From Candidatus Zipacnadia bacterium (GTDB lineage: Bacteria > Armatimonadota > Zipacnadia > Zipacnadales > Zipacnadaceae): DNA of 64,000 bases. The position numbers and the translations under genes were made by a program. The stretch is taken from NCBI GenBank assembly GCA_029820565.1, contig JALGUR010000002.1, forward strand, positions 37,010 through 101,009, given 5' to 3'. Below the pieces are notes generated by a model. That model was not told the DNA's origin, made no database searches, and worked only from the letters and a program-made list of their open reading frames with translations. Within the stretch, counting starts at the first letter, position 1. The number at the start of each line of letters is the position of its first letter. This document shows, in pieces, positions 38,262 through 56,080 of this stretch.

Positions 38262-38981
38262 TTACTCCTGCTGGTCGTCGGCTCCCTCTTCAGTTGCTTG
38301 CTCTGGCGCAGGCTCTTCGTCCAGAAGGGCAGGTTCCACCGCCAGTTGAGTTTCAGCCTCTTCAGTCTCCGCACCGGCTTCTTCTGCCTCCTCGTCCCTC
38401 TCAATTTCACCTGCCTCCTCGACTTCCGCTACCTCCTCTTCCTCGGCCTCAGCGGCTCTGTAGGCGTCTACGACCTCCCGGCCCAGCAGAGCCTGGACCG
38501 TCGTGTCGCGCTGCTCGGCCACCTGGTGAGGATCCCGCAGCATAGACAGAGCCTTGAAACAACTTTTGGCCCGGTTCATAACATTGCCGCTGCCCAGCGA
38601 CTTGGTGAGGATATCACGAATGCCGCTGATTTCAATCAGTTGCCGAGTAGCGCCGCCGGCAATGATACCTGTACCTCGCGAGGCAGGCTTGAGCAGTATA
38701 ATTGCCCCACCCACCTTGGCTTGTACCGCATAAGGGATAGTGTAGCCATCCAGAGGGATGCGTATCATAGTCTTCTTGGCTCGCTTGACCGCCTTCTCAA
38801 TGGCCTCCGGGACGTTGCGCGCCTTGCCCACGGCCAATCCCACGCTGCCCCTACCGTCACCCACCCCGACTACTACCCGGGCGCTGGACAGTCGCCCACC
38901 TCTGACCGTCTTCCGCGTGCGGTCAATACGAATAACGCGATCCTCCAGTTGTTCTTCGAGTTCTTCTTGCTTAGTTACCAC
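38262..38981 (-). CDS. rpsE: 30S ribosomal protein S5 with acidic C-terminal extension
   Basis: VVVGVGDGRGSVGLAVGKARNVPEAIEKAVKRAKKTMIRIPLDGYTIPYAV...LLKPASRGTGIIAGGATRQLIEISGIRDILTKSLGS; C-terminal Glu/Asp/Ala-rich tail; GTG start. Confidence 0.93.
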   Translation of the reverse strand: MVTKQEELEEQLEDRVIRIDRTRKTVRGGRLSSARVVVGVGDGRGSVGLAVGKARNVPEAIEKAVKRAKKTMIRIPLDGYTIPYAVQAKVGGAIILLKPASRGTGIIAGGATRQLIEISGIRDILTKSLGSGNVMNRAKSCFKALSMLRDPHQVAEQRDTTVQALLGREVVDAYRAAEAEEEEVAEVEEAGEIERDEEAEEAGAETEEAETQLAVEPALLDEEPAPEQATEEGADDQQE

Positions 38982-39065: not shown

Positions 39066-40766
39066 TTACATCGGTTGAGTCAGGATAACATTTTCGGCGG
39101 ATTGGCCGGCCGGAATCATAGGGAAGACGTTCTCTTCCTTAGCGACGGCGAAGTCAATGAAGGTGGGCCGGTCGTCTATTTCCATAGCCTGCTCAATGGC
39201 CGGGCGCACCTCCTCGGTCTCGGCTACCTTAATGCCCACTCCTCCGTAAGCCTCCGCCACGCGGGCAAAGTCGGGATTGCCGGTCAGGTCAGTGCCACTG
39301 TAGCGGCGCTCAAAGAACAACTCCTGCCACTGGCGCACCATACCCAAGTAACTATTGTTCAAAATAGCCACTTTCACCGGTAACTTGTTAATGGTTGCCG
39401 TCGCCAGTTCCTGGATACACATCTGAATGGACCCATCACCGGCGATGTCCCACACTACTGCGTCGGGGCAACCGACTTGCGCACCAATGGCAGCAGGAAA
39501 GCCATAGCCCATCGTCCCCAATCCGCCGGAACTAATGAAGTGTCGGGGCTGGTCTACCTTATAGTATTGGGCCGCCCACATCTGATTCTGACCTACCTCA
39601 GTCGTGATAATCGCTTCGCCGCCCGTCACCTCCCAGATCTGCTCCACTACATACTGGGGCGCAATGCCCTCATCAGGGTGGTCATAATGCAACGGATGCT
39701 GGACGCGCCACTCTTCTAACTGCTCCTCCCACTTGCCCTTCTCACGGGGCTGCACTTGCGGCACCAAGTCCTCCAGGACGGTGCGGGCATCGCCTACTAT
39801 GGCCACATCAGGCCGCTTGACCTTGTTATGCTCGGCCGGGTCAATGTCAATGTGTATTACCTTGGCCTCCGGGGCGAACCGGCTCACGTCGCCGGTTACG
39901 CGATCATCAAACCGAGCGCCAATGCAGATAATCAAGTCGGAATACTGCAGGGCATTACTGGCAGGCACTGTGCCGTGCATCCCCGGCATTCCCAGCGACA
40001 GCGGATGACTCTCAGGGATGCCGCCCTTGCCCATAAGTGTATGGACCCCGTAGATATTAGTCTTCTCCGCCAACTGTTTAACTAAATCAGAGGCTCCGGC
40101 GGCAATCACGCCCCCACCGATATACAGAATAGGCCGCTGCGCAGTGGCCATCATCTTGGCTGCCTGCTCAATGCGCTCCGGGTCCCCTTTGGATGGGGGC
40201 CGATAGCCGCGTAGGTTCTCCATCTGCCGCTCAGTCCACTGGGCCGGCCCGGCACTGACATCAAACGGCAAGTCTACCAACACCGGCCCGGGACGGCCGG
40301 TGCGGGCAATATGAAATGCCTCCCGCACAGTATTAGCCAGTTCGTTGGGGTCTTTGACCAGATAATTATGCTTGGTCACGGGCGCGGTGACACCGGTGGT
40401 ATCGGCCTCCTGAAAGGCATCGGTGCCAATAGCCGAAGTCTTGACCTGGCCAGTAATTGCCACTACTGGTATTGAGTCCATATGCGCGTTGCACAGGCCA
40501 GTCACCAGGTTCATCGCTCCGGGGCCACTGGTGGCCATACATACTCCCACCCGCCCGGTGGCCCGAGCGTAGCCGTCGGCGGCGTGGGCTGCTCCCTGCT
40601 CGTGACGGGTGAGGACATGCTTAAGTTCACCCCTCTCGGTTTTTGCGTACAATTTATCATATACCGGAATCAGCACGCCGCCGGGTATTCCGAATATGAC
40701 CTCCACACCTTCCTCTTCAAACACCTTAAATAACACATCAGCGCCAGTGAGTTCTTCTTGTGCCAT
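39066..40766 (-). CDS. ilvB: Acetolactate synthase large subunit
   Basis: ADVLFKVFEEEGVEVIFGIPGGVLIPVYDKL, TDAFQEADTTGVTAPVTKHNYLV, WDIAGDGSIQMCIQEL; start at MAQEELTG. Confidence 0.95.
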   Translation of the reverse strand: MAQEELTGADVLFKVFEEEGVEVIFGIPGGVLIPVYDKLYAKTERGELKHVLTRHEQGAAHAADGYARATGRVGVCMATSGPGAMNLVTGLCNAHMDSIPVVAITGQVKTSAIGTDAFQEADTTGVTAPVTKHNYLVKDPNELANTVREAFHIARTGRPGPVLVDLPFDVSAGPAQWTERQMENLRGYRPPSKGDPERIEQAAKMMATAQRPILYIGGGVIAAGASDLVKQLAEKTNIYGVHTLMGKGGIPESHPLSLGMPGMHGTVPASNALQYSDLIICIGARFDDRVTGDVSRFAPEAKVIHIDIDPAEHNKVKRPDVAIVGDARTVLEDLVPQVQPREKGKWEEQLEEWRVQHPLHYDHPDEGIAPQYVVEQIWEVTGGEAIITTEVGQNQMWAAQYYKVDQPRHFISSGGLGTMGYGFPAAIGAQVGCPDAVVWDIAGDGSIQMCIQELATATINKLPVKVAILNNSYLGMVRQWQELFFERRYSGTDLTGNPDFARVAEAYGGVGIKVAETEEVRPAIEQAMEIDDRPTFIDFAVAKEENVFPMIPAGQSAENVILTQPM

Positions 40767-40795
40767 AGTTGTGTACCTCCTGTTACGGTCTGTGT

Positions 40796-41962
40796 CTATC
40801 GGACTGTATCTGCGCTGGCTTCCTGGTAGGCTTTCTGAATTTGTTCGGCTATATTGGCAGGGGACTGGTAACCTACTAACTCCTGCAGGGCAGCAACTGG
40901 TCCGTGGGTCGCTACGCAACTTTGCATACGATCAAATTCAGGATCGCCGGGCAGGCGGCAGGCCAAAACTGCCGCAACGCTCCGGCAAAGGTTGGCGGTT
41001 GGCAGGCTATGCTTTAAGCAGAGCTGCAGTGGCCCCAGCAGCCGCTCGGCGGGTCCCAGTTTGCGCAGTGGCTCGCGGATGACGCGCCGGACCTCGTCGG
41101 GCAGCCCTTCACCACGCAGCTTGTCGGTGAGACTACGCTGGTACGCTGTCAGCTCCTCAGCGGCGAAGTCGTGCTCACAGGCCAGAGCCTGACCCGACTC
41201 GGCGATGGTAGCCTTGATACGCTGCATTATCTGCTCATCTTGAGCCGCTTGGTGAATGTAGCGGTATTTACCTAACCAGCCCCAGTATCCGCAGGTGGCG
41301 TGGCCGGTGTTGGCAATGTAAAGCTTGCGTTGGAGCCGCGCCGCCTGATTATCAACCCATTCCAGGCCCCGCAGCAGGGGTGGCTCTCCCCGCGCAGCCG
41401 TCAGGTCCGCTGTCCATTCGCTGTAATCCTCGGCTGTAATCAGCAACGGGTCCTGTGCCACGGGAACCACCCGAGCGATCATACAATCAGGGAAGCCGAA
41501 CGTCCGTTGGAATTTCTCGTGCAATTCCACAGGAACGTAGGGCAATATGTACCGCCTAAGGGTTGTGGAGCTGTGTTCCATATTCTCAGCGGCGATGATA
41601 TTTAGCGGGTCAGTGATATTTCGCTCAAGCCGCTGTGTTAAGGCCCCAGCCACCATCTCAGCCACCTGCGGGATGTTACTGGGCAGGACACTGGTCGCCA
41701 CCAGGTCCGCACTGCACACCGCCGCAGCGATCTCTTTCGCCTGACTGCTGTGCAGGGCTTGGAAGCCGGTGATAGTTACCTCCCTCGTCTCCTGGGAACC
41801 CAGCAGACGGACGGTGTATTGGCCGGCTTCTCTCAGCAGTCGCACTAACTGCGCGTTGGAGTCAACCAGAGTTAGCTGCCAACCGTCTTCAAAAGCGAAT
41901 TGTGCTATCTGCCCTCGGCCCGTCATACCCGCGCCGAAAAGTACCAGATGTCTATCGCTCAT
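40796..41962 (-). CDS. Mannitol dehydrogenase-like (MtlD-type) NAD-dependent oxidoreductase
   Basis: HLVLFGAGMTGRGQIAQFAFEDGWQLTLVD, NIIAAENMEHSS, YIANTGHATCGYWGWLG. Confidence 0.8.
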   Translation of the reverse strand: MSDRHLVLFGAGMTGRGQIAQFAFEDGWQLTLVDSNAQLVRLLREAGQYTVRLLGSQETREVTITGFQALHSSQAKEIAAAVCSADLVATSVLPSNIPQVAEMVAGALTQRLERNITDPLNIIAAENMEHSSTTLRRYILPYVPVELHEKFQRTFGFPDCMIARVVPVAQDPLLITAEDYSEWTADLTAARGEPPLLRGLEWVDNQAARLQRKLYIANTGHATCGYWGWLGKYRYIHQAAQDEQIMQRIKATIAESGQALACEHDFAAEELTAYQRSLTDKLRGEGLPDEVRRVIREPLRKLGPAERLLGPLQLCLKHSLPTANLCRSVAAVLACRLPGDPEFDRMQSCVATHGPVAALQELVGYQSPANIAEQIQKAYQEASADTVR

Positions 41963-42398
41963 AGTCGTCCTCCACGCGCACCACATCGTCGAGCTGCGGG
42001 GTAGAGACCTCGAATAGTCGCACATCATCAATGGCCTCTACTCGGTGCTTACGGCCGGGAGGGTTTTCAATAATTGCCCCCGGTCCATACTCTGCGACCT
42101 GTATACTCCCATCGGCGGCCTCTAACTCCGCCCGCAGGTGTCCCCGATCCACATAGATATGTTCATGCTTGAATTGGTGATACTGAAGGCTGGACCGAGA
42201 CCCCGCCTTAAACTCTATCAGCTTCAGCGCATAGTCCTTGGTGTGGGCTATCCAGACTTCACGGCCCCACGGTTTTTCCACAATTTTCACCTGGCCGGTA
42301 GTCTCCATTTCAATCATTGCCCTCGCAACCTGCTGCAAATCTTGATCTGTTTCCAGGTAGTACGTGGCAATTAAGTTTTCACCGCTTGTGAGTGCCAT
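41952..42398 (-). CDS. Cupin, phosphomannose isomerase type II C-terminal-like
   Basis: VEKPWGREVWIAHTKDYALKLIEFKAGSRSSLQYHQFKHEHIYVDRG...PPGRKHRVEAIDD. Confidence 0.8.
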   Translation of the reverse strand: MALTSGENLIATYYLETDQDLQQVARAMIEMETTGQVKIVEKPWGREVWIAHTKDYALKLIEFKAGSRSSLQYHQFKHEHIYVDRGHLRAELEAADGSIQVAEYGPGAIIENPPGRKHRVEAIDDVRLFEVSTPQLDDVVRVEDDYER

Positions 42399-42424: not shown

Positions 42425-44077
42425 CTACTCCAGCACCGCGCCGGAGGCAGCGCTGGAGACCAGGCCGGCGTAGCGGCTCAGCCAGCCGGTCTTAATCTTC
42501 GGCTCGGGCGGTTGCCAGGCGGCACGCCGCCGCTGCAATTCTGCTTCATCTACCAGCAGGTCCAGCCGCCGCTCATCTAAGTCTATCTCAATTTCGTCGC
42601 CATCCTGAATCAGGGCAATCGGCCCGCCGGCGGCTGCCTCGGGAGAGATGTGTCCGATACACGGCCCCCGCGTACCTCCGGAGAATCGCCCGTCGGTCAA
42701 CAAGCCAACGCTATCTTCCTTATCCATCCCGGTCAGCGCGGCAGTGGGGTTGAGCATCTCACGCATGCCTGGGCCACCTCGGGGACCCTCGTAGCGTATG
42801 ATAGCCCAGAAGCCGTCGGGAATCCTGTCGGCCAGAATGGCCGCCATTGCCGCCTCCTCGGAGTCAAAACACAGCGCGGGGCCACGGAATTGGCGCATTT
42901 TCTCCGATACCGCCGACTGCTTGACTACGGCACCATCGGGACATAAAGTCCCCCGCAGCACGGCGATGCCACCTTGGGATGCATAAGCACTATCCAGCGA
43001 GCGGATGACGTCATGGCTGGTTACTTCACCTTGGGCGGCAATCTGCTGCACCGCCAGCCCGCTGACGGTCGGATTGTTCTCCACCATATCAGCCAGTACC
43101 GAAAACACCGCCGGTATTCCCCCGGCCCAGTGCAGGTCTTCCATCATATAGTCACCGGCTGGCCGCAGTTTGCAAATCTGCGGTGTGCTCTGACTGATTT
43201 CGTCAAATGTTTCCAGGGCAATGTCCAAGCCCGCATCGTGGGCGATGGCCGGGACGTGCAGAGCCGTATTGGTCGAGCCGCCCAGGGCCATATCCATCCG
43301 AATAGCGTTGCGTATCCCTGACTCGGTGAGTATCTGGCGAGCAGTAATATTTTCCGTCACCATTGCCATAACCCGCTCGCCACTTTGGTAGGCGATACGT
43401 CGCTTTTCAGCCTGTCCCGCCAGAGCAGTTCCACAGCCGGGCAGGCTCATGCCCATCGCCTCGGTCAGGCAGGCCATAGTATTAGCCGTGTACATCCCCT
43501 GGCACGAGCCCGGCCCCGGGCAGGCCTCTATTTCCAGCTCCGCGAGTTCCTCTTCACTCATCAGGCCCGCCTGCACCCGGCCCACCGCCTCAAATGTATC
43601 CCGCACCAGTGATAGCGGCTTGCCCCGCAGTCGGCCCGAATGCATCGGGCCAGCAGTTACCATAATCGCCGGAATATCCAGGCGTCCTGCGGCCATTAGC
43701 ATTCCGGGGGTAATCTTGTCGCAATCGGTCACGAGCACTAAACCATCCAATGCGTGGGCCATAGCCATACTCTCAACAGTGTCGGCAATAAGTTCACGAG
43801 ACGGCAATGAGTAGAACATCCCCTGATGGCCCATCGCAATGCCGTCACAGATGGCCATCACGCCAAACTGAAACGGCACTCCGCCCCCGGCTGCCACGCC
43901 CTGCTCGGCGGCCCGGGCCAACTCATTGAGCCCGACGTGGCCGGGCACAATGTCGGTAAAGGCGTTGGCAATCCCGATGAACGGCTTATCAAGTTGCTCG
44001 CGAGTTATGCCACAAGCGTGCAGCAACGCCCGCGATGCGGCGTTCTCTAAACCTTTTTTGGCTTGATCACTACGCAT
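42425..44077 (-). CDS. ilvD: Dihydroxy-acid dehydratase
   Basis: [40 protein letters not shown]...[26 protein letters not shown]...[22 protein letters not shown]. Confidence 0.96.
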
Positions 44078-44183
44078 AATTATCACCTCAGTAGTAGCTG
44101 TTAGCAAGTACAGGAACGAAAGGAACGAAAGCAACCACAGCAGCAAACGACCGGGGCGGTCCCTATCGCTGACCCGCTGCTGA

Positions 44184-44567
44184 CTATGATTTCTTTAGTA
44201 ACTTAGTCCTGAGTGCCCCCAACATTCGGCCTACCTCGTCAGCCTGGCTTTGTATTTGCTGATAAACACCTGTGGGCACCAGTTCCAGGTCTCTGCACAA
44301 CAACGAAAAGTACTGTATCTCAGCAAGCGACCCCTGGGCATGACTGATAAAATTGGCAAAATCTTTCTTCGTAGCCCGGCTATCGCCCTCGGCGATATTG
44401 GCCGGAACCGAGTATGCCGCCCGGCGCATCTGACTGGTCAGTCCATAGCGCTCCTCCGACGGGAACTTCTCAGTGACCCGATATATGTAGAGAGTCAGTT
44501 CGTGAGCCTTTTCCCACACCTTCAGGCGCTCAAATACCGGCACCAGGCTTACCCCTTTCCCTGGCAC
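44184..44567 (-). CDS. Four-helix bundle protein (S23 ribosomal/IVS-type)
   Basis: [80 protein letters not shown]. Confidence 0.93.
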
Positions 44568-44589: not shown

Positions 44590-44731
44590 CTGCCGTTCCT
44601 GCCCTTGCTGTATTTCCTGCCGTTCCTGTCCTTGCTGTACTTGCTGCCGTTCCTGCCCTTGCTGCCGTTGCTGTCCTTGCTGTCGTTGCTGTCGTTGCTG
44701 TCGTTGCTGCCGTTCCTGCCGTTCCTGCCGT
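44590..44731. repeat. 9-nt-based simple repeat (minus strand CAGCAACGA / CAGGAACGG / CAGCAAGGA variants)
   Basis: Direct reading: tgccgttcctgcccttgctgt...tcgttgctgtcgttgctgccgttcctgccgttcctgccg. Confidence 0.9.
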
Positions 44732-44734
44732 AAC

Positions 44735-44768
44735 CAAAAGCCTCTCGTCCTCACTGGGACGAGAGGCC
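44735..44768 (-). terminator. T-box leader intrinsic terminator
   Basis: Minus strand CCTCTCGTCC-CAGTGA-GGACGAGAGG followed by CTTTTGGTT. Confidence 0.8.
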
Positions 44769-44998
44769 AATATACTCCCGCGGTACCACCCAAGTTCCCC
44801 GCCGTAGCCTTGGCGTAGGCGGGACACTTTGATGCTGTAACGGGCATTCCCGGCTGCGCTTACTTGGCATTCGGCGCAGCAGCTCCGGGGCGACATTGGG
44901 CGGCTGCCGGCACCGGCACTCTCACCTTCTCGCCGGTTCGCTGTAGCCTACAGGCCCCGCCTACTCCTCCCCTTCATTGCTGTATCAATATCCAATTG
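44735..44998 (-). promoter_or_regulatory. T-box leader (riboswitch) upstream of the four-helix/ilvD genes
   Basis: Minus strand: GGGTGGTACCGCGG T-box core (44779-44791) followed by terminator; Stem I elements GAGGAGTAGGC, CAGCGAACCGGCGAGAAGGTGAGAGTGCCGG. Confidence 0.85.
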
Positions 44999-45004
44999 AT
45001 ATTA

Positions 45005-45033
45005 AGTATACCCGATATTTCTATATTTGTCAA
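45005..45033 (-). promoter_or_regulatory. Sigma-70-like promoter for the T-box leader
   Basis: Minus strand TTGACA (45028-45033), 17-nt spacer, TATACT (45005-45010). Confidence 0.75.
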
Positions 45034-54411: not shown

Positions 54412-55695
54412 ATGCTTGACCACAGGTTGATTCGCGAGCAGCCCGACAAGATACGCGAAGCGTTGCGCAGGCGCGGTTACGAGTTTGACCTTGACGAATT
54501 GATTGTGGTGGAAAGCCGCCGCCGCGAGTTGCTGGAAATCGTGGAAAGCGCTCGGGCTCAGCGCAATGACCTCTCGGAACAAATCGGCCGTCTTATGCAG
54601 CAAGGCGCTGATGTCGACGCGCTTAGAGAGCAGGCCGCGCAGGTCGGTGAGCAAATTGCCCAATATGAGGAACAATTGCGGGAGGTCCAACAGCGCTTTG
54701 ATGAAATGATGGCAGAGTTGCCCAACATTCCTCTGGATGAAGTACCAATGGGCGATTCCGAGGAAGATAACGTAGTTATGTATATCAAGGGTGAAGTGCG
54801 GCGGTTTGATTTTGAGCCACTGGGCCATTGGGAGATTGGCGAGCGCCTCGGAATATTGGATTTCGGAGTTGCTGCCAAGCAAGCCGGGGCCCGCTTCGCC
54901 ACCGATATTGGCGCCGGGGCGGCGCTGGAGCGGGCGCTGATAAACTTTATGTTGGATACTCATACTCGCAAGCACGGTTATACCGAAGTGCTGCCGCCGT
55001 TTCTGGCTAATGAACGCTCCTGTTATGGCACCGCGAATTTGCCTAAGTTTAAGGAAGACCTATTCAAGATCGCCGACGATGACCTGTACTTAATACCCAC
55101 CGCCGAGGTCCCCCTGACCAATATGCACCAGGATGAAATACTGTCAGCGGATGAACTGCCCAAATACTATACCGCTTATACCGCCTGTTTCCGCAGCGAA
55201 GCCGGGGCCGCGGGTAAAGAGACGCGGGGACTGATTCGCGTCCATCAATTCCACAAGGTGGAAATGATGAAGTTTGTGGAGCCGGAGCAGGCCCAAGACG
55301 AACTGGAAAAACTGGTCAAGAATGCCGAGGTGATTATTGAGGCCCTGGAATTGCCTTACCGCCGAGTGCATCTGTGCACCGGGGATATGGGCCATCAGCC
55401 CCGACAAACCTTTGATTTGGAGGGGTTCTTCCCGGCGATGGACAAGTGGCTGGAGCTTTCTTCCTGTAGCCAGTATGGTGACTACCAGGCCCGCCGCTGT
55501 AACACCCGCTATCGCCCTGAGCCGGAGGCTAAGCCGGAATTTGTCCATACTATGAACGGCTCGGGCCTGGCCTGCGGGCGCACTATGGCCGCGATCCTGG
55601 AGAACTACCAGCAAGAGAACGGTACGGTAGTCATTCCCGATGTTCTACGGCCCTATATGGGCGGACTACCAGAAATAACCCCGCGCCTGCCATAA
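54412..55695 (+). CDS. serS: Seryl-tRNA synthetase
   Basis: MLDHRLIREQPDKIREALRRRG, TAEVPLTNMHQDEIL, CFRSEAGAAGKETRGLIRVHQFHKVEM, NGSGLACGRTMAAILENYQ. Confidence 0.97.
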   Translation: MLDHRLIREQPDKIREALRRRGYEFDLDELIVVESRRRELLEIVESARAQRNDLSEQIGRLMQQGADVDALREQAAQVGEQIAQYEEQLREVQQRFDEMMAELPNIPLDEVPMGDSEEDNVVMYIKGEVRRFDFEPLGHWEIGERLGILDFGVAAKQAGARFATDIGAGAALERALINFMLDTHTRKHGYTEVLPPFLANERSCYGTANLPKFKEDLFKIADDDLYLIPTAEVPLTNMHQDEILSADELPKYYTAYTACFRSEAGAAGKETRGLIRVHQFHKVEMMKFVEPEQAQDELEKLVKNAEVIIEALELPYRRVHLCTGDMGHQPRQTFDLEGFFPAMDKWLELSSCSQYGDYQARRCNTRYRPEPEAKPEFVHTMNGSGLACGRTMAAILENYQQENGTVVIPDVLRPYMGGLPEITPRLP

Positions 55696-56080
55696 GCAAG
55701 GGCAGCAACAACCGCAAGGACAGCAACGACTGCCGTCGGAGGGGCCGGTTGAGGCGTTCTTTGCCGAACCCGGCCCGCATGCAACGACAGCAACAACAGC
55801 AACAACAGCCGTCGGAGGGGCCGGTTGAGGCGTTCTTCGCCGAACCCGGCCCGCATGCAACAAGGGCAGCAACGGCGGCCGTCGGAGGGGCCCATTGAGG
55901 CATTGTTTGCCGAACCCGGCCCGCATGCAACAAGGGCAGCAACGGCGGCCGTCGGAGGGGCCGGTTGAGGCGTTGTTTGCCGAACCCGGCCCGCATGCAC
56001 CAGCCGTAAGCAACGACAGCAACGACTGCCGTCGGAGGGGCCGGTTGAGGCGTTCTTTGCCGGACCCGGCCCGCATAGAG
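55696..56080. repeat. Five-unit array of hairpin repeats with CAACRRCAG-type spacers
   Basis: Units GCCGTCGGAGGGGCCGGTTGAGGCGTTCTTTGCCGAACCCGGCCCGCAT start at 55732, 55808, 55878, 55948 and 56028. Confidence 0.93.

Follow-up and report, generated by a model that had tools for sequence, protein, structure and literature searches.

The minus strand of the window, i.e., the whole stretch of 64,000 nucleotides analyzed here, was found to carry a T-box leader. We read it, with a probability of about 0.85, as a canonical transcriptional T-box sensing uncharged tRNA-Val(GAC) and controlling the ilvD-ilvB operon, an element of about 630 nt resembling an rRNA intervening sequence (IVS) being lodged in this genus between the terminator and the ilvD ribosome-binding site. 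The T-box, genuine and complete, is an ordinary new member of the known family RF00230. What was not expected is the presence of an IVS-like element in a riboswitch operon, together with the evidence for widespread repeat-bracketed IVP genes outside rRNA. The insert matters more than the T-box, since a comparison of filled with empty sites among close relatives reveals where an IVS-like insertion took place without breaking the operon. The leader is composed of the following features:

45005 to 45033, minus strand: promoter TTGACA-N17-TATACT, 11 of 12 consensus positions matched (-35 TTGACA at 45033-45028, 17-nt spacer, -10 TATACT at 45010-45005).
44752 to 44986, minus strand: full-length T-box leader (Stem I, II, IIA/B, III and antiterminator), from RF00230 and covariation in 10 orthologs.
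44892 to 44894, minus strand: specifier codon GUC (Val), invariant in ten orthologs, with the same reading before valS.
44778 to 44791, minus strand: T-box core GGGTGGTACCGCGG, whose UGGU is complementary to the ACCA end of tRNA-Val.
44739 to 44768, minus strand: intrinsic terminator stem-loop with a short U tract, the stem being conserved in orthologs (helix 12).

A T-box with this promoter, these core letters, Stem I-like elements and a strong terminator had been proposed in the initial annotation. Its identity was confirmed by a covariance-model search with Rfam RF00230, which gave 124.5 bits over 44986-44752 (minus strand), well above the cutoff of 93 (E 3.8e-27, model positions 1-219); one tRNA was the only other Rfam match in the window. 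Promoter and core were located at the positions listed, and the AGTA and AGCGAACCGGCGAGAAGGTGAGAGTGCCGG elements are indeed present and carried by Stem I. Upstream of most orthologous leaders, a promoter similar to that of the window was observed. As for the terminator, its stem is present and conserved, but the trailing U tract, TTTTGG, is weak and short, which counts against our reading. CTCTCGTCCC pairs either with the core side, giving the antiterminator, or with GGACGAGAGG, giving the terminator; as judged by sequence only, the two structures are mutually exclusive.

The structure was then evaluated on an alignment of ten leaders, that of the window included, located upstream of ilvD in the same family. 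Their consensus fold comprises 70 pairs, in 22 of which both sides have changed. Standard pairs form in 97.4% of the structure cells, compared with only 41-49% when the partners were slid by one to three columns, and the covariation score of 0.303 (0.167 in shuffles) was reached by none of 500 shuffles. Hence, the covariation above shuffles and the excess of paired cells over slid controls indicate that the T-box RNA is under structural constraint.

Valine is well supported as the amino acid of this T-box. The initial annotation had placed CAATGTCG opposite AGGAGTA and tentatively read GTC as the specifier, and both proposals stand. On its 3′ side, the specifier loop has the letters AAnGUCGC in 10/10 leaders; GUC never changes while the preceding base is free, so that the frames AAU, UGU and UCG are out. 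According to the TBDB rule, the standard specifier frame corresponds to bases 2-4 counted from the loop end (PMC7778990), and GUC occupies this frame in the leader of the window. The genome contains a tRNA-Val with anticodon GAC and discriminator A, whose 3′ ACCA end matches the T-box UGGU. At the specifier position, other T-boxes of the same genome carry GTC before valS, CTC before leuA and ATC before a citramalate-synthase-like gene; these gene names are presumed from recognition of the translated sequences, not from a profile search. The alternative frames are also ruled out by the GUC before valS. Valine specificity is thus supported by the invariance of GUC, its standard frame, the calibration by T-boxes of the same genome and the matching tRNA-Val(GAC). 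This T-box brings in an uncultured lineage whose Val/Leu/Ile T-box regulon is coherent. Besides, among 61 genomes sampled in the phylum of the window, 54 have T-boxes, often about five per genome in the family of the window.

The two ilv genes of the operon are:

42425 to 44077, minus strand: ilvD, dihydroxy-acid dehydratase, 550 aa, with a GAGGTG ribosome-binding site (PF00920, E 2.6e-124; PF24877).
39066 to 40919, minus strand: ilvB, acetolactate synthase large subunit, with TPP enzyme domains; the coordinates are those of the open frame and the true start is probably internal.

In the window, the T-box is followed by the IVP gene, ilvD, a cupin gene, a mannitol-dehydrogenase-like gene and ilvB, the ATG of ilvD (44077) lying 674 nt from the T-box end. 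The genes downstream had been described as leading to ilvD and then ilvB: this order holds, but the first gene encountered is the IVP gene and not an ilv gene. The IVP element had been overlooked, as had the cupin and mannitol-dehydrogenase-like genes before ilvB. The proposed branched-chain control is supported by the T-box-ilvD-ilvB order, which is conserved in members of the family. The cupin / mannose-6-phosphate-isomerase-like and mannitol-dehydrogenase-like genes (40799-42398, minus strand) split ilvD from ilvB in the window; ilvD leads directly to ilvB in the relatives whose fetched stretch extends that far. A gene downstream of ilvB (38262-38981, minus strand) resembles that of ribosomal protein S5, has a C-terminal tail that is long and acidic, and is remote from any ribosomal protein operon observed in this analysis.

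Nine relatives belonging to other genera (G003, G004, G006, G007, G008, G009, G011, G012 and G013) have no insert, about 40-70 nt separating the T-box from ilvD, so that both filled and empty sites are seen. In two genomes of another genus, the T-box-ilvD gap holds a Fic-like gene with the motif HPFLDGNGRIGR (G005, L226 636-1817; G010, L227), followed by an AT-rich palindrome-like repeated sequence. This gap has therefore been used more than once.

The insert itself is situated between terminator and ilvD ribosome-binding site, and its gene runs in the direction of the operon:

44590 to 44731, minus strand: 5′ arm, about 15.8 degenerate 9-nt repeats similar to CAGCAACGA (Tandem Repeats Finder).
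44184 to 44543, minus strand: IVP / S23 / four-helix-bundle gene, 119 aa, with GTG as start codon in an open frame that begins at 44567.
44099 to 44150, minus strand: 3′ arm, inverted 9-nt repeats, an inverted match to the 5′ arm.

The GTG start was picked by alignment to the copy of a second genome of the genus, G002. The protein matches PF05635 (23S_rRNA_IVP / four helix bundle; E 2.8e-38) and TIGR02436 (E 1.1e-35), and has a relative of solved structure, 2gsc. The best stretch of the arms scores 24 over 40 positions, a value that 2941 random placements in the window never reach (maximum 16). The pairing energy of the arms is moderately favorable in the window (-76.4 kcal/mol against a shuffle mean of -66.8, sd 4.9) and strongly so in G002 (-99.9 against -68.9, sd 5.1); the insert as a whole folds unremarkably (z -1.4). 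Because of the latter value, the hairpin claim rests on sequence inversion and not on energy; taken with the moderate arm energy, it suggests that the hairpin of the window may be decaying. Besides, about five tandem units of about 70 bp, rich in hairpin-like sequence and interleaved with AGCAACGAC 9-mers, occur at 55695-56076 on the plus strand; this 9-mer is that of the IVP arms, and no IVP gene is found there.

The insert is limited to two independent genomes of one genus, that of the window (G000) and G002. In G002 it occupies the identical site in the same order, with similar arms and an IVP protein 69% identical, the proteins of the locus showing 69-88% identity. The dN/dS ratio between the two IVP copies is about 0.13, an approximate value because dS (1.5) is near saturation; it gives signs of purifying selection on the protein.

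The following sequence of events is proposed by analogy with the T-box family. When tRNA-Val is charged, the terminator would form. Under valine starvation, uncharged tRNA-Val would pair with both GUC and UGGU (UGGU:ACCA), holding the antiterminator and allowing read-through into the IVP gene and ilvD; the insert would be transcribed mainly on read-through. By likeness to rRNA IVS, its arms would pair in the transcript into an imperfect hairpin whose loop contains the IVP gene, and RNase III would cut the paired arms as in the 23S rRNA IVS. The ilvD mRNA would then be left with its own ribosome-binding site. Since no gene is interrupted, the element would be tolerated.

IVP genes outside rRNA were further analyzed in a sample of 80 loci from named records, obtained by a search with six IVP proteins and covering many bacterial phyla and two archaeal lineages; usable flanks were available for 76. 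The upstream flank was aligned to the reverse complement of the downstream flank. A score of at least 16 was reached by 61% of the 76 loci, but among 1074 control placements taken within these loci only 1.5% did so (p~1e-30). Flanks mismatched across loci scored 10.5 on average with a 99th percentile of 19, a value attained by 30/76 true pairs, and the true pair was strictly the best of its own row and column in 22/76. As true pairs outscore mismatched flanks, arms tend to fit their own partner. Among the 46 scoring loci, the best-fitting repeat period was 7 nt in 38 and the 5′ arm consisted mostly of purines in 41. Such flanks are similar to those of the 23S intervening sequences, which carry heptamers and are excised by RNase III. 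IVP genes were also more often flanked on both sides by co-directional neighbors than other genes were (49/71 vs 128/261; p 0.002). The few universal rRNA sequences checked were absent from all 80 loci. Judging from these flank statistics, the S23/four-helix-bundle genes, long without explanation, would as a rule belong to inverted-repeat elements located outside rRNA. Rfam scans of the stretches searched at 73 other IVP loci gave neither riboswitch nor T-box, and the T-box setting is thus special to this genus in this sample.

Within the taxonomic order of the window, an IVP gene separates tRNA genes from the SRP RNA gene in six genomes, and in one it is found in the 16S-23S spacer, between two tRNAs of that spacer. 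Of the other two IVP genes of G000, one is located between nuoK and nuoL and the other follows pgk; an IVP gene also follows nuoK in G002, and pgk in G011, a genome of another genus. We take these genes to be nuoK, nuoL and pgk from recognition of their translations. The loci concerned are:

L026, L027, L030, L033, L036, L051 and L043: IVP loci at tRNA/SRP RNA genes or in the 16S-23S spacer.
L234 2327-2755, L233 2397-2804, L024 and L025: IVP genes near nuoK/nuoL or pgk.

From these data, we tentatively propose, at somewhat less than even odds, that the dispersed IVP/S23 genes of bacteria and some archaea form one class of small hairpin elements. These would bear locus-specific complementary arrays of short, mostly 7-nt repeats, and would reside in spacers of transcribed units, namely operons, a T-box leader, an rRNA spacer and spacers between tRNA and SRP RNA genes, from which they would be removed, or in which they would be tolerated, at the level of the RNA. 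The 23S rRNA IVS would only be the best-known case, and one element would now be under valine-tRNA control in this genus. In the open-access literature, with subscription papers and most preprints outside the scope, no publication on dispersed repeat-flanked IVP genes was found. With the filled and empty sites and the flank statistics, the nature and spread of rRNA intervening sequences become testable by ordinary comparative and RNA-processing methods.

Other explanations of the arrangement were weighed. The insert could be in service, the IVP protein or the paired arms regulating ilvD post-transcriptionally, e.g., through hairpin binding or mRNA stability. Two species retain it at one site, and its protein shows signs of purifying selection; both facts would fit this proposal, as would the fixed positions that IVP genes occupy, across genera, in other operons and at the SRP RNA gene. 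However, relatives manage without an insert between T-box and ilvD, no regulatory function is known for the IVP protein family, and expression of Coxiella S23p or of its IVS in E. coli left growth unchanged (PMC4990558), so that we regard such a role as unlikely. It is more improbable still that IVP is an ordinary small operon gene with a role of its own, and that its flanking repeats, instead of belonging to an element, merely arose from spacer DNA rich in purines and prone to slippage: the arms of the window are admittedly imperfect, with a pairing energy only modestly better than in shuffles, but the orientation is inverted, arms match their own partner over those of other loci, and the excess over control placements is strong in many phyla.

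The coupling of ilvD to the T-box could also be questioned, since a 9/12 promoter-like match (TTGCTA-N17-GATAAT, 44107-44079) stands just before ilvD, and an internal promoter in or after the insert would uncouple the gene in this genus. Yet such matches are expected by chance at 0.5 per region in shuffles, and transcription from this candidate would start within the coding region of ilvD, past its ATG, which makes this explanation highly improbable. Finally, the genomes are drafts, which might raise the suspicion of an assembly or binning error behind the T-box-insert-ilvD arrangement; the independent G002, with the same order at the same site, refutes it. A canonical valine T-box followed by an IVS-like insert hence remains our preferred reading.

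Compared with known systems, the IVP protein weakly matches a related four-helix-bundle family, Avd of diversity-generating retroelements (NF033474; bAvd PF22296). An Avd identity was rejected, as the NF033474 score (53.2 bits) is below the cutoff of 80 and no reverse transcriptase match (PF00078, RVT_1) was found in the draft genome; this latter result also dismisses an element driven by a reverse transcriptase of the same genome. The leader shares with RF00230 systems the Stem I AGTA and distal motifs, Stem II, Stem IIA/B, the antiterminator core with an overlapping terminator, the specifier and UGGN, and a placement upstream of branched-chain amino acid genes. The sole difference is the setting, in which an IVP element parts the T-box from ilvD. 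Regarding the insert, the closest likeness is to the 23S rRNA IVS of Leptospira and Coxiella (PMC4990558), with a sense-direction S23/IVP gene enclosed by an inverted-repeat stem. In Coxiella, the IVS holds an S23 gene with GACAGAT heptamers on its 5′ side and an inverted-repeat stem, and is excised by RNase III (PMC4990558). Similarly, the insert has an S23/IVP gene inside, complementary borders able to form a stem and short tandem repeats on its 5′ side, and is of a similar order of size (about 630 nt vs 428 nt for the IVS). It differs in that it lies in an mRNA leader, between T-box and ilvD, instead of an rRNA gene (the window gave no rRNA match by Rfam), in its repeat of 9 nt instead of 7 nt, and in its much longer 5′ array.
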